A stretch of DNA of 22,589 nucleotides. Origin: a virus. Below are positions 2,691 through 22,589 of the stretch, one piece after another. Location: positions 1 to 22,589 of the IMG/VR virus record IMGVR_UViG_3300035698_002774; one strand, given 5' to 3'. Both the position numbers and the translations under genes were made by a program. How positions within the stretch are numbered: the stretch's first letter is position 1; each line of letters begins with the position of its first letter. Under the pieces are notes generated by a model. That model was not told where the DNA came from. It searched no databases and saw only the letters and a list, made by a program, of their open reading frames with translations.

Positions 2691-2710
2691 CTGTTCACCT
2701 CTTTATGCTT

Positions 2711-3127: not shown

Positions 3128-3138
3128 GTGTTCCTCCT

Positions 3139-4491: not shown

Positions 4492-4506
4492 GAAATCCTC
4501 CTTATT

Positions 4507-4995: not shown

Positions 4996-5004
4996 CTTTC
5001 CCCA

Positions 5005-7002: not shown

Positions 7003-7020
7003 TTTGCTTTACTCCTGTCT

Positions 7021-7055
7021 GCCATTAGCCTCCGGCTAAATGTCGGAGGCTTGGC
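7021..7055 (-). other. GC-rich hairpin between capsid gene and next gene
   Basis: An 8-bp stem (AGCCTCCG at 7027-7034 with CGGAGGCT at 7044-7051) is extended by GCCA/TGGC at the outer ends. It has no U-tract on the minus strand, so it is not a canonical terminator. A competing hairpin (TTAGCC at 7025-7030 with GGCTAA at 7034-7039) uses part of the same bases. It may reduce read-through or stabilise the capsid mRNA end. Confidence 0.55.
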
Positions 7056-7074
7056 GTTTGCGAAAAGAAGATTA

Positions 7075-8076: not shown

Positions 8077-8087
8077 ATTGTCCTCCA

Positions 8088-8858: not shown

Positions 8859-8867
8859 ATATTCCTC

Positions 8868-10040: not shown

Positions 10041-10051
10041 CAGTTGCTCAT
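10040..10051 (-). other. Three-codon leader ORF (MSN) overlapping the protease start
   Basis: ATG AGC AAC TGA; its TGA shares bases with the ATG of the protease gene. The Shine-Dalgarno GGAG at 10058-10061 is six bases from this ATG but 17 from the protease ATG. Confidence 0.35.
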
Positions 10052-10076
10052 AGACTTCTCCTCTTTTCGCAACTAC

Positions 10077-10105
10077 GTTATCGCATAAATTAGATTTTCT
10101 GTCAA
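10077..10105 (-). promoter_or_regulatory. Sigma70-type promoter before the protease/scaffold/capsid genes
   Basis: TTGACA (10105-10100, perfect -35), a 17-base spacer and GATAAC (10082-10077) with an upstream TG in extended -10 position. It lies in the only sizeable gap (10041-10119) of the head operon and could raise output of scaffold, cement and capsid relative to portal and terminase. Confidence 0.65.
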
Positions 10106-10119
10106 AGAACTTTTTTTTG

Positions 10120-10974
10120 TTAGGCTTTCACAATTGGAATTGCAACGCATCTGCAATTTATATCTTCGCCGGGATGTCCAGTTGAGGGCGGGTCATCCCA
10201 TGAAAAAATACGTCCTTCGTTTGCAAGGTGTTCATCCCTTACACGGTTATCACCAGCGGTTGACCAAACATATTGATTGATGCCTAAAGATTTTTGTCTG
10301 TATTGATTCAGGTTTCCAACCAACTTTGAAGTTTGGTCGCGAGCAATTAGTTTCGCTTTATTTTTTGGAATATGAATTTGCGCTTGCAAGTCTTTCGCAA
10401 TATCGGTCGCAAGTCTTCCATCTCTCAAGCCGGATAATGTCGCTTGCTCTATTCTCGAAAACTGTTCCTCTGATATCTTGGTGATAAGTTTCCGCTGTGT
10501 ATTCATAAAAGCGTCACGTTCTGACAATAACCATCCCTCTGCTGATAACGACGGTATTGAAATAAGCGACTGAGTTGCTCGTTGATAGTAGCGTCTATTC
10601 TGGTTTTCTATTTGTCCGAATGTAGTTTCAGCCATATCGTTTAAGGTGGATTGTGGATATTTCTGGTAAAACTGAACCTTCATATCATTCAGCACGCCCT
10701 CAAAATCATCTGAATAGGTGTCTGTTCTCATATCTTGTGTTCTTGGCCGTGATAGGTTAGCCAACTCAACAAGATTGCTTATTTGGGGAAATAGGCGCCC
10801 TTTTTCGATTTCTATTAGGTCGCGGACGTATTGTCTCAATTTTCTTAGATAACTCATTTCCGCCGCCATAGATGACGGTGGCTTGCCCAACTTCTTGTAA
10901 CCCTTTGGCAACTTTCCATCTATCACCCGTTTAGCTCGGATGTAAAGTCTTGCCCTATTATTTAACAACGTCAT
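10120..10974 (-). CDS. Minor head protein, Mu gpF-like
   Basis: 284 residues from the chosen ATG at 10974 (MTLLNNRARLYIRAKR), which overlaps the portal stop by 17 bases and has GAGGGGG upstream; longer in-frame starts run deep into the portal gene. The C-terminus carries the gpF hallmark: IARDQTSKLVGNLNQYRQKSLGI, then YVWSTAGDNRVRDEHLANEG, then DDPPSTGHPGEDINCRCVAIPI, with the ordered Arg, His, Pro-Gly and Cys-Arg-Cys residues. These proteins sit near the portal, a few copies per head, and may enter the host with DNA. The N-terminal 170 residues are helical and variable. Confidence 0.85.
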   Translation of the reverse strand: MTLLNNRARLYIRAKRVIDGKLPKGYKKLGKPPSSMAAEMSYLRKLRQYVRDLIEIEKGRLFPQISNLVELANLSRPRTQDMRTDTYSDDFEGVLNDMKVQFYQKYPQSTLNDMAETTFGQIENQNRRYYQRATQSLISIPSLSAEGWLLSERDAFMNTQRKLITKISEEQFSRIEQATLSGLRDGRLATDIAKDLQAQIHIPKNKAKLIARDQTSKLVGNLNQYRQKSLGINQYVWSTAGDNRVRDEHLANEGRIFSWDDPPSTGHPGEDINCRCVAIPIVKA

Positions 10975-12499
10975 CGCCTGCCCCCTCTGCGGGTTTTGGT
11001 TCTTCCCGGGATATATCGAAACCCATGCGCGTTCCCCTTCGGGTATGAACATCATAAGCATGTTGAGGAACTTCAATATTTTCACCATCTGGCTTTGGCT
11101 CCTCTTTTGGTTCGGGTCCTTCTGTTGGTTCTGGTGCAAGTTCTTTTATCATGTCGCGCAATTCTATATCAAGTTGGGTATCAACTGAAAAGCCATCACC
11201 GCCAAACCTAGACTCTGCGGCTTCCTCGACTGTTATCATTCCAAGGCCAACATTGTTTGCGTCTGCTTCTGACATAATTTTTCGGATATCAGCCTGTTCT
11301 TTTTCTGACAATTGCCATAATGGCAAGAAAACTATTTCATAGTCAATGCCAGCTTGTTTCATCTGTGCGAATATCACATCAAACAAAACTCTAAGGTTTG
11401 GCTCCAATGTTTTATATTGCAAATTCCTTATCATGTCATACCAGCTTAGAGTTGAACTGTTCCCGGTAGCATTGGAACCTGATGGGGATTCGCCAAGCAA
11501 TATTGTGTGCGGAATATCTACGGCCGCAACTAATCTGTTCCCGGCTATTTTTACGGCGTCATTGTAGCCTGTGACTTGTGATGTGATGACTTGATAATCA
11601 TCGTTTTTATCTAGCACCATCATGTTTAAAACAGATTGATAAAGTTGAGTTGCTCTAAACCTAGCAATGACAAGATTTTCCTGACCGCTGGCAATTAAAT
11701 CCATTAAGCCCTCAATCTTGGCCACCTTCTGAACCGCATCCGTTGTTATTGAAGCCAATGACTTATATGCTTGTTCATAATCTCTGACTGATTCATATAT
11801 CGCCTTGATGATACTATCGCCCCAATAATTATTTGTTTTTAAAAGTTTATATGGTAACTGAACGCCGTCAAATCTTAAAAATCTTGAAATGTGTATTTTA
11901 GCGGCCTCTGTTTTAGAGGTTGAGTTGAACGTGAAAAATGCTGGCATTCCGAAAAAGTTTGAAGCCAAGTCTTTTATGATTGAAGTTGTGTCAATTATTA
12001 AATCTGTTTTATCGAACACGACAAGATATTCAATTTCTTTGCCGAGACATTCCTCGATAGGCGCATCCAAAGTTTTGCCTTTAAACCCTATGACAACCCC
12101 GGCTGTTCCGTATAGACGACCCCATTGCATGGCCTCAAGTAACTTGCTTTCTGAATTGAACTGGCGGTAAATCTCCAACGCTTTCAGTTCTAATTCTGCG
12201 GCTTTCTCATTGTCTTTTATTTTAATCTCAAAACCTTCACGCATCATCTCATAAGGGATTCTATTCACAATACGCTGTGTGATGTCATTGTTTCGATACA
12301 TCGTTTCGAGTTGTGAATCATCCACAATGTTTTCTGTGAACGTGGCCGACATCTTTTTGTCTCGGCCTGTTATTCCTAACGCTGTTATGACATTGGCTAA
12401 TCCGTCATTTATCTTTTGCTCATTTGATGTTCTAATACTGTCCTGCCTGCCGAAAACTCTACTAGTCATCGCTTTAAACCCGTTCATATATTTGCCCAT
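10958..12499 (-). CDS. Portal protein (DUF1073-like)
   Basis: 513 residues, the usual portal size. It forms the ring through which DNA enters and leaves the head. Signature-like regions: RNNDITQRIVNRIPYEMMREGFEI, then EAMQWGRLYGTAGVVIGFK, IHISRFLRFDGVQLPY, WGDSIIKAIYESVRDYEQAY, and VDIPHTILLGESPSGSNATG followed by WYDMI, the core DUF1073 pattern. The C-terminal 60 residues are Pro/Glu-rich (EPTEGPEPKEEPKPDGEN) and probably disordered. Some databases label this family 'anti-CBASS Acb1' because of fused members; I see only portal features here. It follows terminase with a 13-base gap and has GGAG before the ATG. Confidence 0.88.
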   Translation of the reverse strand: MGKYMNGFKAMTSRVFGRQDSIRTSNEQKINDGLANVITALGITGRDKKMSATFTENIVDDSQLETMYRNNDITQRIVNRIPYEMMREGFEIKIKDNEKAAELELKALEIYRQFNSESKLLEAMQWGRLYGTAGVVIGFKGKTLDAPIEECLGKEIEYLVVFDKTDLIIDTTSIIKDLASNFFGMPAFFTFNSTSKTEAAKIHISRFLRFDGVQLPYKLLKTNNYWGDSIIKAIYESVRDYEQAYKSLASITTDAVQKVAKIEGLMDLIASGQENLVIARFRATQLYQSVLNMMVLDKNDDYQVITSQVTGYNDAVKIAGNRLVAAVDIPHTILLGESPSGSNATGNSSTLSWYDMIRNLQYKTLEPNLRVLFDVIFAQMKQAGIDYEIVFLPLWQLSEKEQADIRKIMSEADANNVGLGMITVEEAAESRFGGDGFSVDTQLDIELRDMIKELAPEPTEGPEPKEEPKPDGENIEVPQHAYDVHTRRGTRMGFDISREEPKPAEGAGDDVVK

Positions 12500-12512
12500 A
12501 AAAACTCCTCAG

Positions 12513-13397
12513 TTAGATTTCACAAAATTTAAGATATTTGTCCAAAATACGCATTTTCTTATGAAAGTAATACCATGCTTGCGTGCTACCGTCAACTTGG
12601 TCATTATTTTGATTCTTAATTGACGGGCTGAACGCTTCCATTTCTGTCGTGTATTCTTCGAGCCAAGCCGCATTGCGCGGTAAGTGGATGTTCCCACATT
12701 CAGGTAAATATGAAACAGCGTTCGCCCTCGCCCCTTTACTTTCAGTTGGGTTAATAGGCGTGATGCCAACAATTTGATTTTTAAGCACCTCGATAATTGC
12801 GGTTCCGTTGGCCTTGTCTTCAATTAGTTTTTTAATGGCCTGTGGATATGCCGCCGACATTTTGAGAATCGCATTTTTTGTGGCTTGAAAACCAAGATGC
12901 TCTCTTATGCGGTGAACCAGATATATATTTGAGCCCGACCTTGCCCACACCATACCCACCACATAAGACGAACTGGGGTCGTCTTTGAATGCACAATCCC
13001 AACTCTGAATCATCTCATCAATATGTTTTGGCAATGTATCGTAAAGTTTCCAGTAAGATGCCTTGAATATATTACCCTCTTTTTCGGACGGCCTTTGCAA
13101 TATCTGACCAAGGTAAAATCGGCGACCAGCTTTCTTGAGGTTGTCTAAATAGCCTCTCGTGAATCTCTTTGGGAAAAATAAGCCCTTCTTATTATAGAAT
13201 TTTCTTAGTTCTGGCGGTTCTGGGTCTGCCCCGTCCAACTCTCCCGGAATACAAATATGTCTGTATTGGCCAGCGTATTTTTTAAGTATGTGTCCCGTTA
13301 AATCGTCATCGTGTAGCCTTTGCATGATAACTATCCGCAAGCCCACCTCTTGGTCATCCAGCCTTGAATAGAGCGTTGAATCATAAACGTTATTTGT
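12513..13397 (-). CDS. Large terminase, C-terminal part (nuclease domain), out of frame with N-terminal part
   Basis: About 294 codons. The conserved entry (YDSTLYSRLDDQEVG, then LRIVIMQRLHDDDLTGHI) is the link between ATPase and nuclease in large terminases, so this is not an independent gene. RNase H-like nuclease motifs are visible: QSWDCAFKDD (first Asp), KKLIEDKANGTAII (second acidic site) and NDQVDGSTQAWYYF (third Asp). This part cuts concatemeric DNA during packaging. The only start codon near its beginning is a GTG at 13346 inside the conserved linker. Together with the N-terminal part, read through with one -1 step, the protein would be about 491 residues, normal for the family. Confidence 0.82.
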   Translation of the reverse strand, partial: TNNVYDSTLYSRLDDQEVGLRIVIMQRLHDDDLTGHILKKYAGQYRHICIPGELDGADPEPPELRKFYNKKGLFFPKRFTRGYLDNLKKAGRRFYLGQILQRPSEKEGNIFKASYWKLYDTLPKHIDEMIQSWDCAFKDDPSSSYVVGMVWARSGSNIYLVHRIREHLGFQATKNAILKMSAAYPQAIKKLIEDKANGTAIIEVLKNQIVGITPINPTESKGARANAVSYLPECGNIHLPRNAAWLEEYTTEMEAFSPSIKNQNNDQVDGSTQAWYYFHKKMRILDKYLKFCEI

Positions 13398-13987
13398 TTT
13401 TTCAAAACATCAGGTGAGTTCATATTTTTAGGGTTATTAAAATCATCTGCAATTATTATATCACCGCCAAATCCTGTAACAGAGCCGGTGACACTTGTTG
13501 CAAAGCGTTTGCCCCTGTGATTGTTATCATAATTTGATTTTGCATTTTGGTCTGTAGTTAGAAAAAACTTATCTTTCCAATAGTTCTGGAACCAATCACT
13601 CAATATCAAATCCCTGCTTTTCTTGCATAAATCAATTGATAGTGGTTGTGAATAAGATGCTGTTATGAAACGCAAATGAGGATAATTTATCCAGCACCAA
13701 GCCGGGAACATAACCGTGCATAAAAGAGATTTTGTTGAACGTGGCGGGATGTTGACAAGAATATCTTGAGTTTTGGGTTTCCTAGCGACTATGCGCTCGA
13801 CTTCTTTCTGTAAGATGTCGCATAAGTATTTAATATGCCAATTGTCTTTTAATGGTGTTACAGGTTCTAAAACGTCCCATGCCATCTTAAAAAATGAATA
13901 GAAATCAACTTCACATTCACGTTTAATCTGTTCATGCAAAATTTTAATCTCTTGTGCCTCAAGCTCTCTAATTGCATTATCATCCAT
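13331..13987 (-). CDS. Large terminase, N-terminal part (ATPase domain), frame-disrupted
   Basis: 218 codons. It is the packaging motor ATPase: Walker A in VNIPPRSTKSLL, Walker B in GGDIIIADDFNN, and the segment ITASYSQPLSIDLCKKSRDLI between them. After residue 197 (the Lys-Lys of an A6 run at 13397-13402) the frame departs from the family: the annotated tail (IQRSIQGWMTKRWACG) is meaningless, while the -1 frame reads TNNVYDSTLYSRLDDQEVG as expected. The start overlaps the DUF5681 stop as TAATG. Either a one-base loss (true mutation or sequencing error in a homopolymer) or programmed frameshifting could explain it. Confidence 0.82.
   Translation of the reverse strand: MDDNAIRELEAQEIKILHEQIKRECEVDFYSFFKMAWDVLEPVTPLKDNWHIKYLCDILQKEVERIVARKPKTQDILVNIPPRSTKSLLCTVMFPAWCWINYPHLRFITASYSQPLSIDLCKKSRDLILSDWFQNYWKDKFFLTTDQNAKSNYDNNHRGKRFATSVTGSVTGFGGDIIIADDFNNPKNMNSPDVLKKQITFMIQRSIQGWMTKRWACG
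13397..13402 (-). other. A6 run where the terminase frame breaks
   Basis: Codons TTG AAA AAA CAA. One more A would restore the reading frame. The -1 frame is closed upstream by TGA at 13410-13412, so the shift must lie between there and the conserved YDSTL codons, and this run is the only homopolymer in that interval. A -1 slip here would re-pair as GAA AAA, a poor slippery site. Confidence 0.7.
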
Positions 13988-14430
13988 TATTTTTTCAGCT
14001 TTTTAAGTCTCGCCCTAGTTTCTTTGAGTTCCCTGTTCAATCTTTTATTATCCATATCTTTTATTTTTTCGCCTATGGCGTCATGGGGTATAATATTAAC
14101 CGTGTCAGCAACTTTGCCATCGGTTCTGTTCCACACCTCTTTTAATGCGGCTGGATTGCCCTTCATAGCCAAGTCCATTGTTTTAAGAACTAACAAATCT
14201 AACCATTTGCGATTTTTGCTATCCTGTGGGTGTGCTTTAGACAATAATTTATTAAGCATTGTTGTCATCCGTGGCCCCTTTGGCCCCCCTTTGGGATTGC
14301 CACTCTCTCCGGGTTTCCACGCAGGCTGAAGGTTCTCAAGGCGCTTTTCCTTGGCTGTCTTCGTCTTTACCTTCTTAGTTGTCTTTTTAACCTTTTTCGG
14401 TGTATTTTTCGGTGTATTTGTCTTTTTCAT
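13987..14430 (-). CDS. DUF5681 protein, possible small terminase subunit
   Basis: 147 residues. It starts with a Lys/Thr-rich basic arm (KNTPKKVKKTTKKVKTK), then the DUF5681 signature PAWKPGESGNPKGGPKG (usually W-PGQSGNP-GRPKG), a helical region (LLVLKTMDLAMKGNPAALKEVWNRTDG) and a basic coiled C-terminus (RLNRELKETRARLKKLKK). Proteins with this motif often sit next to large terminases and are suspected DNA-recognition subunits. Both ends overlap neighbours as TAATG. The terminase role is inference from position and basic character. Confidence 0.7.
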   Translation of the reverse strand: MKKTNTPKNTPKKVKKTTKKVKTKTAKEKRLENLQPAWKPGESGNPKGGPKGPRMTTMLNKLLSKAHPQDSKNRKWLDLLVLKTMDLAMKGNPAALKEVWNRTDGKVADTVNIIPHDAIGEKIKDMDNKRLNRELKETRARLKKLKK

Positions 14431-15095
14431 TATCTACTATCCTTATCAAAACTTACAATCTTGTCATAAAAATCGTGATAGAAATCAAATATGTCTTTCC
14501 CGATTGTGATGCAACCGTTCTCTACTCTCGGATTTGTGTTTATGTTAGCACTTGTTTCAACAGCAAAATGAAATTTCTCACCATATCCGGCGAATGTCTT
14601 GGAATGGTTCCTGAATACGGCAATGCGTCCGCCTGTTTTTGTGGCCAATTCTTTCAAGTGGTCAAACTCTGTGGAATAGCTCCCTTTAAATATCTCTCCA
14701 ACAAATACGTCTAGTTTTTTTATTTTACCGTCTGTTATCCACTCCTCAATCTGCAAAACATCGTCTGACGCCATACACCACGTTGAAAACATACAATAAT
14801 CAAGGTCTTGTTGTCTTAATATAACTTTCAGGTATGACAATGCGTCAACGTCCCCGCCTGTTAAGCAATGATAGCTTTCCCCGTCTTTAAAATTAGAGCC
14901 TACCGCATCCAGTAAATTAGTTTCCGAAAAAGCTCTCCGATATATATTTTTTTGTTTTCGCACGAAACAGCCAACTTTAGTTCTCGGTGGTAAGCATCCC
15001 GACTTTGACGTTTTTTTATTTTTTAATTCATTATCATCGTCAAGACCAAGATTGAGGTCAAGGTTAAGGTTTAAATTGAGATTGTTTTCATTCAT
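14430..15095 (-). CDS. Phospholipase D-like (HKD) protein, probable nuclease or DNA-binding
   Basis: 221 residues from ATG 15095 (MNENN), which has GAGGG upstream and overlaps the ParB-like stop by eight bases; a longer in-frame start at 15239 lies deep inside that gene. Residues 5-18 are an (Asn/Asp)-Leu dipeptide repeat. The C-terminal half follows one PLD half-site: GGRIAVFRNHSKTF (His164, Lys166), then ETSANINTNPRVENG (Ser-Ala-Asn at 182-184, Glu192). PLD-family members with one such site act as dimers and cut phosphodiester bonds. The canonical Asp after the Lys is not obvious, so activity is uncertain. Location beside terminase genes suggests a packaging or DNA-processing role. Confidence 0.6.
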   Translation of the reverse strand: MNENNLNLNLNLDLNLGLDDDNELKNKKTSKSGCLPPRTKVGCFVRKQKNIYRRAFSETNLLDAVGSNFKDGESYHCLTGGDVDALSYLKVILRQQDLDYCMFSTWCMASDDVLQIEEWITDGKIKKLDVFVGEIFKGSYSTEFDHLKELATKTGGRIAVFRNHSKTFAGYGEKFHFAVETSANINTNPRVENGCITIGKDIFDFYHDFYDKIVSFDKDSR

Positions 15096-15651
15096 TTTTT
15101 CCCTCATCGACATTAAATTTGTGCCCACAAGCTGGGCATTTGACAATTTGTTCTTTTTTGTTTCCGGCGTTTTTTTCGTCATCGTCATCATCTGGTTCAT
15201 TTTCAAAATCAAAATCAAGCGCAAGTTCCGGGATGTCAATCATTTCATTTATTTCAGCAACGTCAATGCCAGCATTTAAAAAGTAGTCAGCGGCACCGGT
15301 GTCATCAATGCGCCCATATCTGGATGACGCTAAAAGTAGTTTTTCTTTTGCTTCTTTTCTATCTTTTGCGGTGATATAAACAACTGGGACTTTATTATTT
15401 TCGATTGTATAGCCATCGTTTAGCATCTGTTGGAGTACGAAGAGCCGTTGATGTCCGTCAATCGTATATTTAACGCCGTCATCATTCCACACGAATAGAG
15501 GAAATGAAAAGCCGAAAGCAATGAAGGATTTTTTTAATTTTTGGGCTTGCTTGTCGTGCAACTTTTTGAATGTCCCCTGAAAGTGTTTTAATTCATCCAT
15601 ATGAACCATGTCAGTTGCTTCACAAGTGATTTTTATAAGTTTTTCATCCAT
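15088..15651 (-). CDS. ParB/Srx-like domain protein with C-terminal Cys pair
   Basis: 187 residues. The block LKHFQGTFKKLHDKQAQKLKKSF, then FPLFVWNDDG-KYTIDGHQRLFVLQQML, then VPVVYITAKDRKEAKEKLLLASSRYG is the ParB N-terminal domain; GHQRL is its nucleotide-binding core. An acidic linker (FDFENEPDDDDDEKN) is followed by CPACGHKF, half of a zinc ribbon. Phages often carry such proteins beside terminase, where they are thought to bind or nick DNA; CTPase, nuclease or regulatory activity cannot be told apart here. Start at 15651 has GAGG upstream. Confidence 0.72.
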   Translation of the reverse strand: MDEKLIKITCEATDMVHMDELKHFQGTFKKLHDKQAQKLKKSFIAFGFSFPLFVWNDDGVKYTIDGHQRLFVLQQMLNDGYTIENNKVPVVYITAKDRKEAKEKLLLASSRYGRIDDTGAADYFLNAGIDVAEINEMIDIPELALDFDFENEPDDDDDEKNAGNKKEQIVKCPACGHKFNVDEGKNE

Positions 15652-15674
15652 TGCATTGCCTCGGCTCTCGTTGT

Positions 15675-15953
15675 TTATTTTTTAGGCGCTGGTTTGTAGT
15701 ATTTACTCATAACAGTTTTCAGTTCTTCGTTATCAATCTGACTTAATTCCTGCAACATCACGTTCACTGTTCTTATTTCTTTTTGAGTTTGTGCAATTGC
15801 GTTGTTTGCTTTTAATACTAATGCGCTCGTTTGAGTCTTTTTGCCTTTCCAACTCTCATACATATACATTGAGCCACTTACCATTACTTGCAACATACAA
15901 AACCACAATGAAAATACCATCACACTAATTAGAATATTTTGCATTTTCTTCAT
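15675..15953 (-). CDS. Small membrane protein with a helical tail
   Basis: 92 residues from ATG 15953, chosen because AAAGGAG repeats lie just before it; an in-frame ATG at 15992 is farther inside the upstream gene. One N-terminal membrane segment (ILISVMVFSLWFCMLQVMVSG) precedes a charged helix (SALVLKANNAIAQTQKEIRTVNVMLQELSQ) and a Lys/Pro end. The single membrane segment plus periplasm-facing helix is the shape of an inner-membrane spanin subunit or a holin-associated protein, but no motif fixes this. The start overlaps the previous gene by 29 bases. Confidence 0.55.
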   Translation of the reverse strand: MKKMQNILISVMVFSLWFCMLQVMVSGSMYMYESWKGKKTQTSALVLKANNAIAQTQKEIRTVNVMLQELSQIDNEELKTVMSKYYKPAPKK

Positions 15954-16347
15954 CTCCTTTTTCTCCTTTTGTTTTTTCGTTTTTGTCGACATTAACTATT
16001 TGCAACAGCCAAGTGTCTTCTTGGCAGGCACATGGTATATTACCCCCTTGTGGTAAATCAAGACAACTTTCAAATATTCTTTTGCACGTTTTGTCGTCCT
16101 GACAAGTTACTTTTAATATCAGCGGCCACTTAAATCCATTTCCAGCCAACGCATCGCACGTTGTCATTTCTTTAGGTTTTTGGATATAGAGCGCGACCGT
16201 TTCCGTTCCATCTACGGCCATCAAAGTGGTAAGTGCGTTCGCCATATGTTTGGCCTGCTTTTTGTCGTTAAATAACATTATGGCAAGCGTTCCCAATATA
16301 ATGCCTGCTAATAAAATACATACAACCTTTTTTCTTTTTTTACCCAT
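15925..16347 (-). CDS. Small membrane-anchored Cys-rich protein
   Basis: 140 residues from ATG 16347 (MGKKRKKVVCILLAGI), preceded by GAGGGGAGG at about nine bases; an in-frame ATG at 16404 with GGGG nearby is the alternative. One membrane segment (VVCILLAGIILGTLAIMLF) follows a positive N-terminus, so the rest is probably outside the cytoplasm. The exported part holds six cysteines (TTCDALAG, KVTCQDDKTCKRIFESCLD, IPCACQEDT), suggesting disulfides. No family recognised. Paired and overlapping with the next small membrane protein, so the two may act together at the envelope. Confidence 0.55.
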   Translation of the reverse strand: MGKKRKKVVCILLAGIILGTLAIMLFNDKKQAKHMANALTTLMAVDGTETVALYIQKPKEMTTCDALAGNGFKWPLILKVTCQDDKTCKRIFESCLDLPQGGNIPCACQEDTWLLQIVNVDKNEKTKGEKGDEENAKYSN

Positions 16348-16431
16348 TTTTGAAAACCTCCCCTCGACAATTGTTAGTCTTTCTAAACCTCGTTTAATTC
16401 CCATAGTTACCCCGATTGAGGGTATGCTTAT

Positions 16432-16806
16432 TTAATATTCAATTCCTGTATTGCAAACATTATCTCCGGCCAAATATCGTTGAACGACATCTATGAAATA
16501 ATCTAAACTTCTGGCCTCTGCCACTGCATAACCCTCGCTTAGTAGTTTTTTAATTTTACTTATTTGATTTGCTGAAAATACACCTTCTGGACTTTTCATT
16601 TCAATATAAAGCCCGTGATAAGGTGTCAATGGATGTGCTAAAAACAAGTCTGGTATTCCGGGACGAACGCTCTCTTTTTTTAGAAAAAATCCCGTCTTCG
16701 CTGTTCTATACCCGCCATTAGGTATAGCGTAAAGCAATAGACTTGTGTGCTGATAATCGAACCACTCAATACAAGCGCATTGTATTTTAGATTCTTTAGG
16801 ACGCAT
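16432..16806 (-). CDS. VRR-NUC domain nuclease
   Basis: 124 residues, the normal size for stand-alone phage VRR-NUC proteins. Core motifs: an N-terminal Glu/Gln helix (ESKIQCACIEWF), then SVRPGIPDLFLA (the catalytic Asp of the PD part), LYIEMKSPEGVFSANQ (the E-x-K part) and a C-terminal helix-strand (LLSEGYAVAEARSLDYFIDVV). The fold is PD-(D/E)XK; relatives cut branched DNA or resolve junctions. Lies three bases after the previous stop. Substrate is unknown. Confidence 0.85.
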   Translation of the reverse strand: MRPKESKIQCACIEWFDYQHTSLLLYAIPNGGYRTAKTGFFLKKESVRPGIPDLFLAHPLTPYHGLYIEMKSPEGVFSANQISKIKKLLSEGYAVAEARSLDYFIDVVQRYLAGDNVCNTGIEY

Positions 16807-16809
16807 AAA

Positions 16810-17013
16810 TCAACCTTCTTCGCTATTATCAAAATCTTCCGGCTTTTGTTTCCTGATATGGAACTCAAATTCTTTTGGAATCATATCAAGATAAACATTT
16901 ATTGACCCGTCTTTGTTTTCAAACCCTATTCCAACCTTTGTCCAGATAGGCTTTTTGTTGTCTTTGCGCTGTTTGATATTAAATACATCAAATCTTTGTG
17001 AATCTTTTGGCAT
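16810..17013 (-). CDS. Small conserved-looking phage protein of unknown function
   Basis: 67 residues from ATG 17013 (MPKDSQRFDVFNIKQ), with AAGGG upstream. A longer in-frame ATG at 17055 lies within a few bases of where the promoter at 17065-17073 would start transcripts, so it is unlikely. The pattern W-KVGIGFENKDGSINVYLDMIP is common in small phage proteins near replication genes, and resembles a short OB-like or beta-hairpin unit. Function unknown. Confidence 0.65.
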   Translation of the reverse strand: MPKDSQRFDVFNIKQRKDNKKPIWTKVGIGFENKDGSINVYLDMIPKEFEFHIRKQKPEDFDNSEEG

Positions 17014-17064
17014 ATGTTTTTCCCTTTTAAAGTTATCAGGGCAACAAACTATCATTTTTTATAA

Positions 17065-17073
17065 ATTATAGCA
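17065..17073 (-). promoter_or_regulatory. Extended -10 promoter (TGCTATAAT)
   Basis: A perfect TATAAT (17070-17065) with TGC directly upstream, no good -35. Predicted transcription start near 17058. It would drive the small gene at 17013, VRR-NUC and the following genes separately from the replication genes. Confidence 0.6.
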
Positions 17074-17095
17074 AAAACTAAATTTCAGCGCATTT

Positions 17096-17356
17096 TCAGG
17101 AATCAAAAAAACCCCTATTGTTCATTCTGGCTTTTAATAAGTTATCCAACCGGACTATCCAATTTTCCTCATCTACTTCAAATATTTCTAGTTCCGGCCT
17201 GTTAGCATAAACAAACAATTTCATTTTCTTATATAGTATATTCAACCGCAATTGCTCTTTGGCGTTCTTTTTGGCCTGTTTAAGATTCATATACATCGAG
17301 ACACTAACACCGACAACGCCTATTAGATTTATGATTGTTAAGAAAGTAAATCCCAT
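17096..17356 (-). CDS. Small membrane protein
   Basis: 86 residues. The N-terminal 20 residues are one hydrophobic segment (FLTIINLIGVVGVSVSMYM), followed by a basic helix (LKQAKKNAKEQLRLNILYKKMK) and a short acidic end. AGGA precedes the ATG. No family recognised; the single anchor and cytoplasmic or periplasmic helix do not decide a role. Confidence 0.55.
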   Translation of the reverse strand: MGFTFLTIINLIGVVGVSVSMYMNLKQAKKNAKEQLRLNILYKKMKLFVYANRPELEIFEVDEENWIVRLDNLLKARMNNRGFFDS

Positions 17357-17358
17357 AA

Positions 17359-17877
17359 TTATCCTAAAAGAGTTGTTTGTTTTTCTCTTGCAATAAGTTG
17401 CTCATAAACTTTTATAAAATGCGCACGGGTAACTCCAACGGTTGGTGACTTACACATATTATTCCAACCCAAAATATTTATTGCTTTTAAAATATACTTG
17501 TCCGATATGATGTTTGTGGGGCTACCATAAAAACCTTCTTTGCTTAATGCTTGGTTAACCTGTCCCCATGCTTCGGCGGCTGTTGAGTAGCTTAGTTCAT
17601 CAATGAGCGCATACTCCCGGATGTACGCACCGACATTTGTGTTCGGATATATCTCTTTATGTATTTGACAAAACTTCATAATCCCTTTTTCAAACTGTGC
17701 TGGCTTTAAGTCCATTAAAAATCTATACATAATTTGGGCTTCATCAGAATCAATATCAAGTCCCCGGAATCGACCACGCAATATTGTAATACCACCGGCA
17801 AACTGTTTTTTTTCTAGGTTAACCTTCGTTAACGAATTGTTGAAGACCTTTTGCAAAATCCCTGATACTTTTTCCAT
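17359..17877 (-). CDS. Possible replicative helicase loader
   Basis: 172 residues from ATG 17877 (MEKVSGILQ), which has AAGGA upstream and overlaps the initiator gene by 59 bases; the in-frame ATG at 17931 would enlarge the overlap. It is mostly helical, with blocks FRGLDIDSDEAQIMYRFLMDLKP, then FEKGIMKFCQIHKEIYPNTNVGAYIREYAL, without a Walker A motif, so it is not a DnaC-type ATPase. Size, helical content and position right after an initiator resemble lambda P-type loaders. The function is inference from position. Confidence 0.5.
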   Translation of the reverse strand: MEKVSGILQKVFNNSLTKVNLEKKQFAGGITILRGRFRGLDIDSDEAQIMYRFLMDLKPAQFEKGIMKFCQIHKEIYPNTNVGAYIREYALIDELSYSTAAEAWGQVNQALSKEGFYGSPTNIISDKYILKAINILGWNNMCKSPTVGVTRAHFIKVYEQLIAREKQTTLLG

Positions 17878-18610
17878 TAGCTTTGTTTCCTTTTTGCTTG
17901 TAATTATTAAACGGGTCAGCCTCATTGACAAATTTATCGAGCCCCCTGTCTAAAAATTCTTTCAAGTTCCATTTGTGCGACCAGTAATATTCATCACCCT
18001 TTAAAATACTTGAATAGTTTTCTATAGCGGATGATATGTCATCAACACTTTTTCTTGCAAGTGCTGTTTTTAAAGATGTCTTCAACCCTCTAATGCTTTT
18101 AATTTCTTTGTGTTTTATAATACACTGGTCATTCCATTTTACGAGTATATATATATCTTTCTTTAATTCTTTAATTCTTATGTTCTTTAATTCTTGTTTG
18201 TGGTCACCTGCTGGTCGCTTGCTGGTCACTTGCTGGTCACTTGCTGGTCGTTCAATTGGCTGGTCACTTGGTCGTTTAGGGTTTTCCGTGTCTTGATATT
18301 CGTTATAATTACATACAGTTATGACACTAAATCTGTTGGTCGTTTCGATGGTTATTCTATTGGTCGATTTTAGGTACTTTAGTGAAGTGCGGATTTGTCT
18401 TTCGGTTAAGTTACAGGCCAGAGCGAGTTTCTTCCGGCCTGTTACCGTTTGACCTCGTTCACATTGCACTTGCTGACCGTTCATAAAAAACTTTCTAGGC
18501 TCGTGATTTGCATCTAATAATAAATAGGTAAATAAAGCAAAGGCTTTCCGATTTTGGAAAAGGTCGCTTTTTATTATTTTTCTATGTAGTTTTATCCAAC
18601 CGCTTTCCAT
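17819..18610 (-). CDS. Replication initiator with N-terminal winged helix
   Basis: 263 residues. Residues 1-108 follow the phage initiator pattern: GWIKLHRKIIKSDLFQNRKAF, then LLLDANHEPRKFF-NGQQVQCERGQTVTGRKKLALACNLTERQIRTSLKYL, then TVCNYNEYQD. That is a winged helix-turn-helix that binds origin DNA. Residues 112-137 are low complexity (SDQ, QVT, SKR, PAGD) because they are encoded by 11-bp iterons. The C-terminal half (LVKWNDQCIIKHKEIKSIRG, then FNNYKQKGNKANGKSIRDF) resembles the partner-binding part of such initiators. Start overlaps upstream stop as TAATG. Confidence 0.78.
   Translation of the reverse strand: MESGWIKLHRKIIKSDLFQNRKAFALFTYLLLDANHEPRKFFMNGQQVQCERGQTVTGRKKLALACNLTERQIRTSLKYLKSTNRITIETTNRFSVITVCNYNEYQDTENPKRPSDQPIERPASDQQVTSKRPAGDHKQELKNIRIKELKKDIYILVKWNDQCIIKHKEIKSIRGLKTSLKTALARKSVDDISSAIENYSSILKGDEYYWSHKWNLKEFLDRGLDKFVNEADPFNNYKQKGNKANGKSIRDFAKGLQQFVNEG
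18134..18200. other. AT-rich tract with direct repeats, candidate unwinding element
   Basis: A strongly AT-rich stretch with (TA)n at about 18145-18156 and repeated TTCTTTAATTCTT units at about 18157-18196. It directly abuts the iteron block, the arrangement seen in lambda ori. Confidence 0.6.
18201..18274. repeat. 11-bp iterons inside the initiator gene (candidate origin)
   Basis: Plus-strand TGGTC begins at 18201, 18212, 18223, 18234 and 18245 (exact 11-base steps), then 18261 and 18269. The consensus unit is TGGTCACTTGC. The period is one helical turn, so bound protein would line up on one face of DNA. The repeats run through all three codon frames of the gene, which points to selection on DNA. 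Confidence 0.75.
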
Positions 18611-18807
18611 TACTTACTCCGATAAGTATAATCTGTTTTCCCCTCTACCATAAAGCCAGACTCCATCCCTAGTCTATGCCAACAGCTTGAACAGATGCCT
18701 TGATGTGGTGTTTCTTCGTTGTCAAATTGATAAATTCTAGGGTCAGATAGGACGAACCAACTCCTACAAAAAAGACAAAAAACATCCAAAGTGTTGTAGA
18801 TTTTCAT
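18610..18807 (-). CDS. Small zinc-finger-like protein
   Basis: 65 residues from ATG 18807 (MKIYNTLDVFCLF), which has GGGGG upstream; the long in-frame extension to 18978 would cross the structured intergenic stretch and is rejected. Two Cys pairs (CLFC near residue 11 and CSSC near 40) form a four-Cys zinc knuckle, followed by a short basic end. It overlaps the initiator start as TAATG, so translation is coupled. No family recognised; binding of nucleic acid or protein is possible. Confidence 0.6.
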   Translation of the reverse strand: MKIYNTLDVFCLFCRSWFVLSDPRIYQFDNEETPHQGICSSCWHRLGMESGFMVEGKTDYTYRSK

Positions 18808-18827
18808 AATACCCCCAATAAATACAA

Positions 18828-18915
18828 ATCCACGCAGGTAAAGGTAGACAGCGACCAAGAAGTTTCCCTTTGTGATTCCCACGTGGATATGAATGTTTTG
18901 GATTCGGTCGCTATC
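18828..18915 (-). other. Possible RNA pseudoknot in the replication-operon leader
   Basis: On the minus strand: arm A GATAGCGACC (18915-18906), arm B ATCCACG (18888-18882), arm A' GGTCGCTGTC (18856-18847), arm B' CGTGGAT (18834-18828). A pairs A' over ten bases with one G-U; B pairs B' over seven. The order A-B-A'-B' is the H-type pseudoknot topology. The seven-base pair alone could be chance. CCACGTGG is also a perfect eight-base palindrome. Confidence 0.35.
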
Positions 18916-18923
18916 ATTTCCCC

Positions 18924-18951
18924 ACCTTACATGAATAATACACAAAGTCAA
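18924..18951 (-). promoter_or_regulatory. Candidate promoter for the replication genes
   Basis: TTGACT (18951-18946), 16-base spacer, TAAGGT (18929-18924). The -35 lies in the 3' arm of the hairpin. The -10 is weak, so this is tentative. Confidence 0.35.
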
Positions 18952-18975
18952 GGGCGTTTCAATCCCCTGACCTTG
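18943..18975 (-). other. 12-bp RNA hairpin after the coiled-coil gene
   Basis: Arms CAAGGTCAGGGG (18975-18964) and CCCTTGACTTTG (18954-18943) with a nine-base loop. It pairs fully as minus-strand RNA using two G-U pairs; on the plus strand these become A-C mismatches, so the structure favours the minus transcript. No U-tract follows. Confidence 0.55.
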
Positions 18976-18989
18976 CATAAAAAATCTTG

Positions 18990-19580
18990 TTAACTACGAC
19001 TTGCGGATGTAATGATATCCGTGTAAACCTCAATGGCACCAACGCCTACAAGTTTTTCGGCATCCTTACCCATTGCATTAACTAGCTGATTTATTTTTGT
19101 TGAGTTGACCATCATAAAATCTTTTTTGATTCTGGATTCATTCTTGATGCGCCATTTGAGAACCTTTCTCGTTGACAATCCCTTGACCTTTGGCTTCGCG
19201 GGCTGCATCGGCTCGACCGGGATGTCCTTATGCCCTGCCTTGTCAAGTTCTTTGCGCCTTGCTATGATCTCAGCGTTCCTTTTGCGCTCTTGCTCGATCG
19301 TATAGGTTCCAATCTTTCGCTTGATGATCTGCTCGGCTTCGCTCAGAGGCTCGGTGTATTTTGTTTCGGCCTTTTTTGCTTCCTTGTGCGCCAGGTGAGC
19401 GGCCTTAATAAACGGGCTGTGATGATCTTCGATTTCGGTTTTCATGGCTTTGATGTTCTTGAGAAATTCGGCGGCTTGCTCAAAGGTATTTCCATCGACG
19501 ATCTGGATCTGATCCGCTTGCTCCGGGATCGTTAGCGCCCTCTCTTCTACCTTCTGAATCTGAGTCATTTCGTTAGTCAT
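18990..19580 (-). CDS. Coiled-coil protein of the recombination module, function unknown
   Basis: 196 residues from ATG 19580 (MTNEMTQIQKVEERAL), preceded by AAAGGAGATCAA; the in-frame ATG at 19610 has no such site. The central part is long charged helix (FEQAAEFLKNIKAMKTEIEDHH, then AHKEAKKAETKYTEPLSEAEQIIKRKIGTYTIEQERKRNAEIIARR), then a Pro/Lys linker and a small C-terminal unit (LSTRKVLKWRIKNESRIKKDFMMVNSTKINQLV). Proteins of this shape are common beside phage recombinases and may be accessory or nuclease-inhibiting factors. The upstream two thirds lie in the GATC-rich island. Start overlaps the upstream stop as ATGA. Confidence 0.65.
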   Translation of the reverse strand: MTNEMTQIQKVEERALTIPEQADQIQIVDGNTFEQAAEFLKNIKAMKTEIEDHHSPFIKAAHLAHKEAKKAETKYTEPLSEAEQIIKRKIGTYTIEQERKRNAEIIARRKELDKAGHKDIPVEPMQPAKPKVKGLSTRKVLKWRIKNESRIKKDFMMVNSTKINQLVNAMGKDAEKLVGVGAIEVYTDIITSASRS

Positions 19581-19780
19581 TTGATCTCCTTTTGGGTTTG
19601 CTCGATGCAAACTCCTGTCGTTTTAAAGTCGTTTATGTGGCATTCGCAATACGCTCCGCATTGGATGTCAAATCTACATTCAATCGTCTTGCAAGTCCAG
19701 CACTTCGCCTGGGATATCCCGATTAGCGTTATTAGGCTCACCAGGGTTGTCAATATTGCTATTCTCTTTTTTATCGTCAT
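19577..19780 (-). CDS. Small secreted Cys-rich protein
   Basis: 67 residues from ATG 19780, preceded by AAGGAGGCC at good spacing. It begins with a clear signal peptide (MTIKKRIAILTTLVSLITLI, then GISQA and a likely cut before Lys-Cys). The mature part of about 42 residues has seven cysteines (CWTC, EC, QC, YCEC, VC), so it is probably disulfide-bonded outside the cytoplasm. No family recognised. It overlaps the zinc-ribbon gene by about 100 bases in a different frame and ends in an ATGA overlap with the next gene. It lies in the GATC-rich island. Confidence 0.55.
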   Translation of the reverse strand: MTIKKRIAILTTLVSLITLIGISQAKCWTCKTIECRFDIQCGAYCECHINDFKTTGVCIEQTQKEIK

Positions 19781-19862
19781 TTTGGGCCTCCTTCGTGTCG
19801 GCTCCGCAGTTCCAGCAAAACCGACCCAGGTTATTAGCAAGACATTTCTTGCATCTCTTCAT
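19680..19862 (-). CDS. Zinc-ribbon mini-protein overlapping the secreted Cys-rich gene
   Basis: 60 residues from ATG 19862 (MKRCKKCLANNLGRFCWNCG), with GGGGGG before it. Two Cys pairs (CKKC, CWNC) 13 residues apart form a compact zinc ribbon; the rest is polar and acidic (DDKKENSNIDNPGEPNNANRD). The last third overlaps the signal-peptide region of the next gene in another frame. Both frames have good ribosome binding sites and sensible proteins, so I keep both, with this one slightly less certain in its C-terminus. Confidence 0.5.
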   Translation of the reverse strand: MKRCKKCLANNLGRFCWNCGADTKEAQNDDKKENSNIDNPGEPNNANRDIPGEVLDLQDD

Positions 19863-19873
19863 TGACCCCCCGA

Positions 19874-20449
19874 TCAATCTTGCAGCCAAGACTTGTTGCG
19901 CTGCTTCCAGTTTGCGACTACGAGCGCCGCTTTGAACTCCGCAAAATCCTTCTCGTCATCTTCATACCTCGGATGCAGCTTATACTTTCCATTGGCCTTT
20001 AGTTGCAGGATCCGCCTCGATGCCTCAACGCCTCTGGCCTTCTTATAAGCCATTGTTTGCAACTTTGCCCAATCCTGCGGAGCCCCGGTCTTGAGATCGA
20101 TGATCGTATATTCCTTATTGACGAATCCTTCGCGATCCAGGGTTCCGGCGTAAAAAAGAAGAGGATCGAAAACTCTCTTTTCGATGCAATGCCATTCGAC
20201 ATCATTATCTTTTAAAAATTTCTGATATGCCTCAAGGTATGGAATAAAGTTATCGTGAACTGTTGCCCAATCCAAGCACCCATCGTCAAGATAAGTTGAC
20301 GCGATATGCACCGCCGTACCTCTGTGCATTGCTGCATCATTAAAATATTTGGTTTCGATCATACCTGCCTCGCTGAGGATCGTTGTAACATTCGGAACGA
20401 TTCTGTCTTTGAAGGTATAAATATGATCCTCTTCGTTAAATTCTAACAT
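19874..20449 (-). CDS. RecB/Cas4-type PD-(D/E)XK exonuclease
   Basis: 191 residues from ATG 20449 (MLEFNEEDHIYTF), preceded by GGAGGG; the in-frame ATG at 20482 is inside the ERF gene. Motifs of RecB-family nucleases are in order: VPNVTTILSEAG, HRGTAVHIAS (motif with His), FYAGTLDREGFV (Asp), EYTIIDLKTGAPQDW (Asp, then Glu-x-Lys-like Asp-Leu-Lys), and KLQTMAYKKA (Gln-Tyr motif). It would chew double-stranded ends to make single strands for the adjacent ERF protein, a Red-like pair. Entirely within the GATC-rich island. Confidence 0.8.
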   Translation of the reverse strand: MLEFNEEDHIYTFKDRIVPNVTTILSEAGMIETKYFNDAAMHRGTAVHIASTYLDDGCLDWATVHDNFIPYLEAYQKFLKDNDVEWHCIEKRVFDPLLFYAGTLDREGFVNKEYTIIDLKTGAPQDWAKLQTMAYKKARGVEASRRILQLKANGKYKLHPRYEDDEKDFAEFKAALVVANWKQRNKSWLQD

Positions 20450-20451
20450 TT

Positions 20452-21150
20452 TCAGCCCTCCACCTTTTGAGCCGATACCCAATCACAAATTTTTTCATAA
20501 TCTGATTTTAGTATTTTACTAGATGAGTCAATTCCATATACCTCAAAAAGATGCACCTTGATTTCATCGTAGCTGATTTCACTTTTGTTGCCTATTGTAA
20601 AAAGTCTTTTCCTTTGAGGTTCTGTTATTACTTTGGATGGAATCTTTTGAGGCGTGGCTGGTAGATCCTGGCCCTGTTTTTTCTTGCTTCCGCTTGCTGC
20701 ATTGCCATCATCATCGTCATCAGGCGCTATACCAACCATTGCGCTCAATCCATATCGTCTGCCGTAAGTTATTGCAGAACCTAATCCTTGAGCATTATTT
20801 TTATCTGGTTTGATTGTGATATGTCCCCTTATCCACTCGCCGGACGAATGAGCAAGTGTTGTTCTAATAATAACTTCACCGTTGATGGTTGATGTGGTTT
20901 GTATAACGGCCAATTCGTTTCTAGATAACTGGTTTCTGCACGCATTCCAAACTGAACTAAGGTCGGCATATTTTGATTTAAAAAATGGATTTTCGCTATC
21001 TTCCTTAGCAGGCTGGATGAGACCTTGTGCTTTTGATAAAGCCAGAACTAACTTTCCTATTGTTGCAGATTGATTTTTTTCATTTGGTTTAATCTCATTA
21101 TTCTTTACTGGCAATTCTGTGGCTTCTTTAACGTCATTTGGGTTGGTCAT
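20452..21150 (-). CDS. erf: ERF-family single-strand annealing protein
   Basis: 232 residues. ERF hallmarks are clear: LVLALSKAQGLIQPAKEDSE, then NPFFKSKYADLSSVWNACR, then LAVIQTTSTI, HSSGEWIRGHI, QGLGSAITYGRRYGLSAMVG and the acidic run APDDDDDGNAA. It anneals complementary strands during phage recombination and genome end joining. A linker and a C-terminal helical unit (ITEPQRKRLFTIGNKSEISYDEIK) follow, as in other ERF proteins. AAAGGAG precedes the ATG, which overlaps the stop of a 24-codon ORF as ATGA. The exonuclease follows two bases after its stop. Confidence 0.88.
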   Translation of the reverse strand: MTNPNDVKEATELPVKNNEIKPNEKNQSATIGKLVLALSKAQGLIQPAKEDSENPFFKSKYADLSSVWNACRNQLSRNELAVIQTTSTINGEVIIRTTLAHSSGEWIRGHITIKPDKNNAQGLGSAITYGRRYGLSAMVGIAPDDDDDGNAASGSKKKQGQDLPATPQKIPSKVITEPQRKRLFTIGNKSEISYDEIKVHLFEVYGIDSSSKILKSDYEKICDWVSAQKVEG

Positions 21151-21221
21151 TTTTTACTCCTTTTTTTCATTCGATAATACCATGCGACAATTCGATTATT
21201 CAATTTGTGATACTTTTTCAT
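21147..21221 (-). CDS. 24-residue basic mini-ORF linking two genes
   Basis: ATG 21221 (MKKYHKLNNRIVAWYYRMKK) ends at TGA 21147-21149. It overlaps the upstream 56-residue gene as ATGA and the ERF start as ATGA, and GGGGG lies before its start. It may be a real small basic protein or only a coupling device that keeps ribosomes on the message. Confidence 0.4.
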   Translation of the reverse strand: MKKYHKLNNRIVAWYYRMKKRSKK

Positions 21222-21388
21222 CTAACCCCCTTTTTGATTTTTTCTTTTGCGGCATCCTTATAAAATGTTGTCATTGAATAAAGGCCACCCATTTTTTTCG
21301 ACATCTGTTTGCAATATTTCTTGACTTCTTTTTTCTCATCTTTTGACAGTTTAAAATGTGCTGTCTCTTGGTCAAATTTATAGCTCAT
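21218..21388 (-). CDS. Small basic protein, function unknown
   Basis: 56 residues by my own translation from ATG 21388 (MSYKFDQETAHFKLSKDEKK), ending at TGA 21218-21220. It is Lys-rich and helical (KKEVKKYCKQMSKKM), with a C-terminal YKDAAKEKIKKG. GGGG precedes the start by about seven bases. No family recognised; it lies just upstream of the recombination genes. Confidence 0.55.
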   Translation of the reverse strand: MSYKFDQETAHFKLSKDEKKEVKKYCKQMSKKMGGLYSMTTFYKDAAKEKIKKGVR

Positions 21389-21441
21389 CTTTTACCCCTT
21401 TCGATTGTTGTTGTAGCATACTTGTTGTTCTTTTGCAACAT

Positions 21442-21768
21442 CTATTTTTTATTTTCTTTTTCTATCTCGTTCGCGTCCCAATAAGACTTGGCCACCTTGC
21501 GGAGCATTTCAACATCATATGCGCCTCTATTGTCTTCAACGTATCTATGGCAACCCATCGGCTTTTTCTTGTCATTAGTAAGGCCAACGCAAGCCGGAAC
21601 TGTTAAATCGTCCCGACTTCTTTTGCGTGTTATTCCATCGCCGACATGATGCGGTGTTATTGTTAAAACATCGGAGGCGCTCGCTCCGCAGAACCAACAA
21701 ACTTGCTTTCTAATCCACGCAAGATGTTTTTTATCAATTACCTTCTTTTGTTTCCAAAACGATTTCAT
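21442..21768 (-). CDS. HNH-like nuclease / recombination protein
   Basis: 108 residues from ATG 21768 (MKSFWKQKK), six bases after GGGAG. Metal-finger layout: CWFCG (Cys24, Cys27), ITPHHVGDG (His40, His41), RDDLTVPAC (Asp53, Cys60), then GCHRYVED (His74). This Cys-Cys / His-His / Asp / Cys-His order is that of small HNH-type phage proteins that act in DNA recombination. Substrate and activity are not shown by sequence alone. Overlaps the previous gene by 35 bases. Confidence 0.68.
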   Translation of the reverse strand: MKSFWKQKKVIDKKHLAWIRKQVCWFCGASASDVLTITPHHVGDGITRKRSRDDLTVPACVGLTNDKKKPMGCHRYVEDNRGAYDVEMLRKVAKSYWDANEIEKENKK

Positions 21769-21997
21769 GCACATCTCCCACCCTTGAATATTTAATTATA
21801 ATTCCATTTGATACTACTGTCTGTTTGTCTATTTTTGGCGGTTTACAAGGTGGTGTTTTGGGCGGCTCAATATTACTTAAATCGTCCATGACTTCATACG
21901 TTTCGGGCGTGAAACTTACAGCACCACATCCGGAGGCCGCCAAATCCTTAAATGCCTTTTCAATATTCCTTCGTTGTATCACAATATTCTTTTTCAT
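21734..21997 (-). CDS. Hypothetical early protein
   Basis: 87 residues. The start has AGGAGG at ideal spacing. The first 45 residues are mixed (IVIQRRNIEKAFKDLAASGCG, then TPETYEVMDDL), the middle is Pro/Lys-rich (EPPKTPPCKPPKIDKQT) and the end is beta-like (SNGIIIKYSRVGDVHEIVLE). No family recognised. Confidence 0.55.
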   Translation of the reverse strand: MKKNIVIQRRNIEKAFKDLAASGCGAVSFTPETYEVMDDLSNIEPPKTPPCKPPKIDKQTVVSNGIIIKYSRVGDVHEIVLETKEGN

Positions 21998-22021
21998 TTG
22001 TCTTTTTCCTCCTGTTGTTGT

Positions 22022-22210
22022 TTATTTTTTTCGGGTATGGTTGTTGACCTTTAAGTCATCAACAATAATAGATTTAGCTTTTTGACCCTCTATTTTATGT
22101 TGTCTAATCTCCATTAGTTTTAAAACATAAGTTCCTTCTAGGGTGGCAAAGGCGAGAACCTCACCCTCTTTCATTTTTTTTATTGCTATAGCTATTGAGT
22201 AATTTTTCAT
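22022..22210 (-). CDS. Hypothetical early mini-protein
   Basis: 62 residues from ATG 22210 (MKNYSIAIAIKKMKEG), with GGAGG inside the last codons of the upstream gene. A short beta unit (GEVLAFATLEGTYVLKLMEIRQ) is followed by a basic end. The upstream in-frame ATG at 22294 lies within the preceding gene and is rejected. No family recognised. Confidence 0.5.
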   Translation of the reverse strand: MKNYSIAIAIKKMKEGEVLAFATLEGTYVLKLMEIRQHKIEGQKAKSIIVDDLKVNNHTRKK

Positions 22211-22211
22211 T

Positions 22212-22457
22212 TTATCGCCTCCACATAATTGGCCGCCATTCGCCCCTACATTCATATTTGCCCGTTTCCCAATCATAGTCAAACCCGTCCGCATAATTAC
22301 TGCAAACGATTGACGCCCAAATAAATCCTAGATTGCTTCCCTTGTCTTCTGCTTTTGGTTGTTCTTTGAGCGTTTCGATTTTCGATTCGCAAACCCTGAA
22401 TACGTCAAAGCCCCCGCCTATTGGGAATATTCTAACTTCACATTTTGGTTCTGACAT
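22212..22457 (-). CDS. Hypothetical early protein
   Basis: 81 residues, start preceded by GGGAGGG. Begins with a beta segment (CEVRIFPIGGGFDVFRVCESK), has four cysteines in total, and ends WETGKYECRGEWRPIMWRR. No family recognised. It stops one base before the next ATG. Confidence 0.5.
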   Translation of the reverse strand: MSEPKCEVRIFPIGGGFDVFRVCESKIETLKEQPKAEDKGSNLGFIWASIVCSNYADGFDYDWETGKYECRGEWRPIMWRR

Positions 22458-22470
22458 CTATCCCTCCCCT

Positions 22471-22589
22471 TCATTGTTGTTGTCCTCTTTTGGTGACCTT
22501 AACTTCTTTACCATGCAGGTCGTTTTTTGCGTCAATCCCTGTCACTTCTTTAAATATATCAGCGTCCCATTCATCTAAAGACTTTAAAT
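22471..22589 (-). CDS. C-terminal end of a gene entering from the right edge
   Basis: By my own translation one minus-strand frame is open from the window edge to TGA at 22471-22473 and reads SLDEWDADIFKEVTGIDAKN, then a short basic tail ending GQQQ. Codon use looks real, but only 39 residues are visible and no family can be named. Confidence 0.5.
   Translation of the reverse strand, partial: LKSLDEWDADIFKEVTGIDAKNDLHGKEVKVTKRGQQQ

Follow-up and report, generated by a model that had tools for sequence, protein, structure and literature searches.

A phage lineage with a contractile tail, purged of the word GATC, has probably undergone a recent swap in which an island of 1.3 kb was obtained from a GATC-tolerant donor; we assign this reading a probability of roughly 0.7. 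The window, i.e. the whole stretch of DNA analysed here, is the complete virus record itself (22,589 bases, linear). By its gene content, the contig is a fragment of a contractile-tailed phage: on the minus strand, small early genes are followed by ERF, an exonuclease, two Cys-rich mini-genes, a coiled-coil gene, a DnaD-like helicase loader, VRR-NUC and terminase, then by portal (PF06381), a Mu F-like protein, head maturation protease (PF09979) and capsid (PF09950), and finally by sheath (phrog_205), tape measure and a Dit-like protein. The features to which the argument refers are the following.

1–19099, no strand: GATC-purged left part with structural, packaging and replication genes; 1 GATC.
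6503–6506, no strand: sole GATC beyond the island, within a small gene of the head-tail region.
18990–19610, minus strand: coiled-coil gene just downstream of the exonuclease region, 9 GATC; weak match to phrog_10477 'exonuclease' (E 1.5e-8).
19100–20460, no strand: block of foreign composition with 18 of the 20 GATC (first 19266, last 20425), delimited by GATC positions, GC3 and codon usage; edges approximate.
19577–19840, minus strand: Cys-rich mini-gene 1, 1 GATC; an open reading frame with, from an internal ATG, a signal-peptide-like stretch and then a Cys-rich tail.
19680–19889, minus strand: Cys-rich mini-gene 2, 1 GATC; zinc-ribbon-like by its sequence (CxxC...CxxC).
19874–20482, minus strand: phage exonuclease, 8 GATC; phrog_298 exonuclease, E 5.6e-18.
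20452–21150, minus strand: ERF single-strand annealing protein, with a lone GATC at 20664; PF04404, E 1.6e-25.
20461–22589, no strand: GATC-purged right part with ERF and small early genes; 1 GATC.

The ERF domain (PF04404) adjoins the exonuclease gene (phrog_298) in an Erf/exonuclease recombination module, and the exonuclease is probably the recombination partner of ERF. Alignments suggest that the true start of the exonuclease is likely the ATG at about 20449; that of the coiled-coil gene is probably the ATG near 19579. The two mini-genes overlap (19577–19889), and no match was obtained in family and phage-relative searches with mini-gene 1 or in family searches with mini-gene 2.

GATC occurs 20 times in the 22,589 nt, once at 6503 and 19 times within 19266–20664 (19266, 19296, 19326, 19424, 19500, 19506, 19511, 19527, 19583, 19872, 20009, 20095, 20102, 20134, 20164, 20357, 20378, 20425 and 20664). 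The dense block comprises the 18 sites from 19266 to 20425, while 20664 stands apart, in the ERF gene. Against the single site outside the island, a maximal-order Markov model predicts 66 (Poisson P ~1e-27) and synonymous codon shuffling 53.5 ± 5.6 (Poisson P ~3e-22); for positions 1–19264, where one site is seen, the Markov expectation is 60.1. In a two-rate scan, 19266–20664 is selected and the log-likelihood rises by 48.9, compared with at most 14.5 in 300 random placements. No other 4-base palindrome is nearly as depleted as GATC, the sole one near zero (CATG and GTAC are mildly low window-wide), and the break at the island is peculiar to it, being absent for every other 4-base palindrome. 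A first-pass annotation of this DNA had reported one GATC outside the island (6503) and 19 inside, which the computed counts bear out; its expectation of about 70 sites in the rest and its strong local break are upheld by the Markov value and the scan, and its statement that other frequent tetramers (CATG, GCGC, TCGA) lack such a break agrees with the palindrome counts relative to the Markov model. Its GC content of about 37% has to be corrected to 39.8%. The island was also described as packed with GATC. This holds relative to the genome, whose codon frequencies applied to the island proteins give 5.5 sites against the 18 seen, but the density is only mildly above that given by the codon usage of the island itself, 12.3 ± 2.6 sites (P = 0.03).

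The depletion reflects selection acting on DNA, not on protein. Where Asp precedes C outside the island, its codon is GAC in 41 of 41 cases, whereas before other bases 275 of 422 Asp codons are GAT; likewise, ATC accounts for one of 86 Ile codons after G and for 92 of 418 after other bases. GATC is cleared there in both codon-boundary phases, and its avoidance is independent of the reading frame. Inside the island, the same contexts contain GAT in 8 of 8 cases (Asp before C) and ATC in 11 of 17 (Ile after G); because the counts reverse in this way, the avoidance, which spans codon boundaries, is wholly lost in the island. No sign of partial purging is seen.

Composition sets the island apart as well. 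Its GC3 is 0.54 (0.539) over 460 codons, compared with 0.355 in the rest, where the highest 440-codon window reaches 0.452. Synonymous codon usage is the most deviant of the contig (island versus rest, chi2 189.5, 41 df): TTA is used for Leu in 2 of 31 cases in the island and in 184 of 541 elsewhere, and AAG for Lys in 30 of 51 and 171 of 615 cases, respectively. In principle, such a codon shift could stem from expression. Measured in 90-base windows, GC3 climbs within the 3' part of the coiled-coil gene at ~19.1 kb and drops at ~20.46 kb, at the ERF/exonuclease boundary, and GC3 and GATC shift together along the contig; the ERF gene, with a GC3 of 0.31, is recipient-like. We place the left joint within the coiled-coil gene, toward its 3' end, and the right joint at the ERF/exonuclease boundary, at about 20.43–20.48 kb; both positions are approximate. 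The interval proposed earlier, 19265–20667, captured the dense GATC correctly, but its right limit of 20667 lies beyond this joint.

The nearest kin of the window are two contigs, G001 (23,032 bases) and G002 (37,243 bases), which are almost identical to each other. Most genes of the window have collinear counterparts in G002, at 25–45% protein identity (mostly 35–45%) or, for ERF, 67%, and the order ERF, exonuclease, coiled-coil gene is kept there. The exonuclease is 42% identical to its G002 homolog, and the coiled-coil protein 40% identical to the protein at the matching place. The two mini-genes are missing from G002, which has ~85 bases there versus ~411 in the window. To judge by this comparison, the exonuclease and the coiled-coil gene appear to be old members of the genome plan. 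Because G002 has both genes at the matching place and in matching order, the island is most readily interpreted as an allele replacement and not as an added cassette. The simple gain of foreign genes is ruled out by this gene order, the mini-genes being the only net gain. Thus, of the earlier proposal that the island is newly acquired and not yet purged, the foreign composition and the missing sign of purging stand, but the exonuclease and the coiled-coil gene are not new genes. Two further observations concern this genome pair. The large terminase of the window lies in two overlapping frames (13331–13987 and 12513–13346) that match successive parts of phrog_38, and that of G002 is a single frame of 445 aa; the split (12513–13987) is a frameshift or sequence error near 13340. 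The sheath (3139–4491), a tail-region gene (5005–5697) and a capsid-side gene (8088–8858) have a segment of about 100 residues in common, which cross-matches several places in G002.

In the ERF tree, the window and G002 are sisters (support 99/99) with a path length of 0.57. In the exonuclease tree, the window falls into an unresolved group with no supported sister, and its path is 2.14 to G002, about four times that of ERF, and 2.48 to L044. The contrast between the two trees is consistent with a joint between these genes. The distance of the exonuclease from G002 is matched by that of most other genes, so the tree is silent on which side moved; ERF, and not the island, may even be the unusual gene in this comparison, since identity to G002 is mostly 35–45% across the genome. 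It is composition that points to the exonuclease side as the moved one. As a separate observation, the ERF core (20674–21150) has 77% protein identity to G002, compared with ~40% in other genes, and may itself have been exchanged recently.

G002 is GATC-poor, too (30 sites versus 109 expected by the Markov model), and its genes matching the island contain only 3 GATC. The sites left in G002 tend to clump to some degree (dispersion P = 0.014; largest gap P = 0.044), a hint that the window may not be the only mosaic of purged and unpurged DNA. Four GATC fall within 105 bases of one G002 gene (L033, 16510–16615, gene 16476–17693). G002 also seems to avoid a second word: CGCG is absent (L033, L034) versus 38.6 expected by the Markov model, and it occurs 30 times in the window.

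According to our preferred model, the phage lineage has long been under DNA-level selection to lose GATC, imposed most likely by host restriction of the DpnII/MboI type. A piece of 1.3 kb, spanning the exonuclease, both mini-genes and the greater part of the coiled-coil gene, would then recently have been exchanged by homologous or homeologous recombination between one joint in the coiled-coil gene and another at the ERF/exonuclease junction. Orthologs would have been in place for the swap, because G002 keeps the order of ERF, exonuclease and coiled-coil gene. The ERF/exonuclease pair encoded by the phage itself is a plausible catalyst: recombination of diverged DNA is known for Erf recombinases, and Erf/exo pairs catalyse exchange between diverged phages (PMC3945230; PMC2327257). 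The donor would have been a phage lineage with a higher GC3 that does not avoid GATC, and the new segment is still unpurged.

The depletion, the island, its codon shift, the conserved gene order and the unequal relatedness of ERF and exonuclease are direct observations. Because the best match to the island has only ~42% protein identity, we infer the event from composition and trees, and its recency and the kind of selecting enzyme are likewise deduced. Searches with the exonuclease, the coiled-coil gene and the mini-genes against phages, viral contigs and genome contigs yielded nothing closer, and neither a high-identity donor nor an unrecombined sister was found among them. A search of the island apart from its flanks had been advised in the first-pass annotation; blastn of 18.5–21.8 kb against phage records gave a single match, 107 bases within ERF, and no close relative of the island. 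When viral contigs were scanned with a degenerate DNA pattern matching the first part of the exonuclease gene, no second contig was retrieved; near-identical records may escape this kind of search. Exonuclease homologs were gathered from 45 viral loci and 3 genome loci; a coiled-coil homolog adjoins the exonuclease in L044, L047, L052, L062 and others, and the pair occurs together in GATC-replete contigs of 58–63% GC (L044, L047, L052, L062, L063, L070). These contigs show that possible donors of a suitable kind exist, although none is close. Relatives of the portal, capsid and ERF proteins are scattered over Proteobacteria, Firmicutes, Cyanobacteria and Chlorobi, all at <60% identity, and no host was assigned. 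In one of the capsid relatives (L026, 1–16685), GGCC is wholly absent and CATG, GATC and CTAG are almost so; several 4-base palindromes are avoided together there.

Restriction of the DpnII/MboI type is the likely, though unproven, purging force. Under plain restriction, 19 clustered sites should be nearly as harmful as 19 sites anywhere, and the benefit of having cleared about 65 would be mostly forfeited; for this reason, the purging pressure is probably off or countered, or the swap is very young. The island could be very young, the present host could lack the enzyme, protection genes could lie outside the fragment, or the pressure could be something other than cutting. We consider it quite possible, at somewhat less than even odds, that selection has been relaxed or countered by GATC methylation in the phage or a recent host, or by loss of the enzyme, which may accompany the swap and would not replace it. 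A restricting host should cut most genomes with 19 uniform sites, and G002 likewise carries its 30 GATC. Against this, no Dam-type methylase was found among the scanned genes of the window, which would leave ~40% of the genome beyond the fragment if it is of G002 size.

A less probable variant retains the recent swap and attributes the purging to MutH/Dam mismatch repair instead of a restriction enzyme, so that 19 clustered sites would be cheaper. GATC is the MutH/Dam site, phiX174 is devoid of GATC, and the effect of added sites on mutation rate depends on their location (PMC5014478); such a force would ease the paradox of a phage bearing 19 sites. On the other hand, restriction is a well-documented cause of near-total site elimination, and GATC is under-used by all 46 phages whose hosts carry a matching enzyme (PMC6286503). 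Of the long selection by a GATC-cutting system proposed earlier, the codon contexts confirm selection at the DNA level, but for restriction itself the MutH/Dam mechanism is a published alternative (PMC5014478).

The main alternative considered initially was a chimeric assembly. An arbitrary misjoin is unlikely, because reading frames and gene order continue across both joints, the latter as in G002; moreover, two joints within 1.4 kb would require two misjoins. A chimera of reads from two related phages in one metagenome, joined via the conserved exonuclease and coiled-coil genes, stays as a rival, since the window is a single contig and a chimera of homologous strains would preserve frames and gene order and leave identical marks. 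We regard it as improbable relative to a recombination event in the phage itself. More doubtful still is a purging pressure that is not simple cutting anywhere, such as location-dependent MutH or timed DNA entry, from which one module would be exempt and of which G002, given its clumped residual sites, would be a second case.

Least probable of all is a functional cluster whose sites in the recombination region are kept by selection, e.g. for Dam regulation or protein binding: although a few sites are spaced by 30 bases and their number exceeds the expectation from the island's own codons, this excess is slight, the sites are spread over several coding genes, the matching G002 genes hold only three, and the same module occurs without a cluster in at least four GATC-poor lineages and at ordinary density in GATC-replete ones. 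Seven GATC-poor contigs with an exonuclease homolog (≥4 lineages) represent the former, i.e. L051, L053, L058 and L086 with no GATC in 10–20 kb, and L071–L073, apparently one lineage, with one GATC each; none has an island. Because these homologous loci lack an island and the exonuclease region of GATC-replete loci is ordinary, the module shows neither a need for GATC nor a special tolerance of it. A functional tie of the cluster to the recombination module was rejected on the basis of these GATC-poor control loci.

Two well-known processes, the avoidance of a site and the mosaicism of phages, are clearly exemplified by this probable recent exchange of an island in a purged genome, which is not a new kind of system. 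The near-loss of a 4-base palindrome resembles restriction-site avoidance in dsDNA phages, where GATC is among the most consistently avoided words (Rusinov et al. 2018, PMC6286503); in the window, a single sharply bounded block interrupts the avoidance. Coliphages such as phiX174 also lack GATC, with ~20 sites expected, and mismatch repair/Dam has been offered as the cause (PMC5014478), whereas the window belongs to a dsDNA contractile-tailed phage with an exempt island. Exchange of segments between diverged phages is known from homeologous mosaicism via Rad52-like phage recombinases (PMC3945230, PMC2327257), and the window has an Erf/exonuclease pair of a type with demonstrated capacity for such exchange; here, the swapped segment belongs to the recombination module and is revealed by an avoided word. 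In mycobacteriophages, compositional outliers in sliding-window tetranucleotide usage, GATC included, were read as possible recent transfer (PMC4841201); the GATC change of cluster B3 is, however, a genome-wide enrichment, and that of the window a depletion with one local exception.

A word cleared by selection serves as an internal clock and as a recombination map, in that blocks retaining it arrived after the clearing or escaped it. The signal in the window is unusually clean, with joints marked to ~200 bases even without a known donor, and it suggests a simple scan of uncultured phages for young recombinant segments and host changes.
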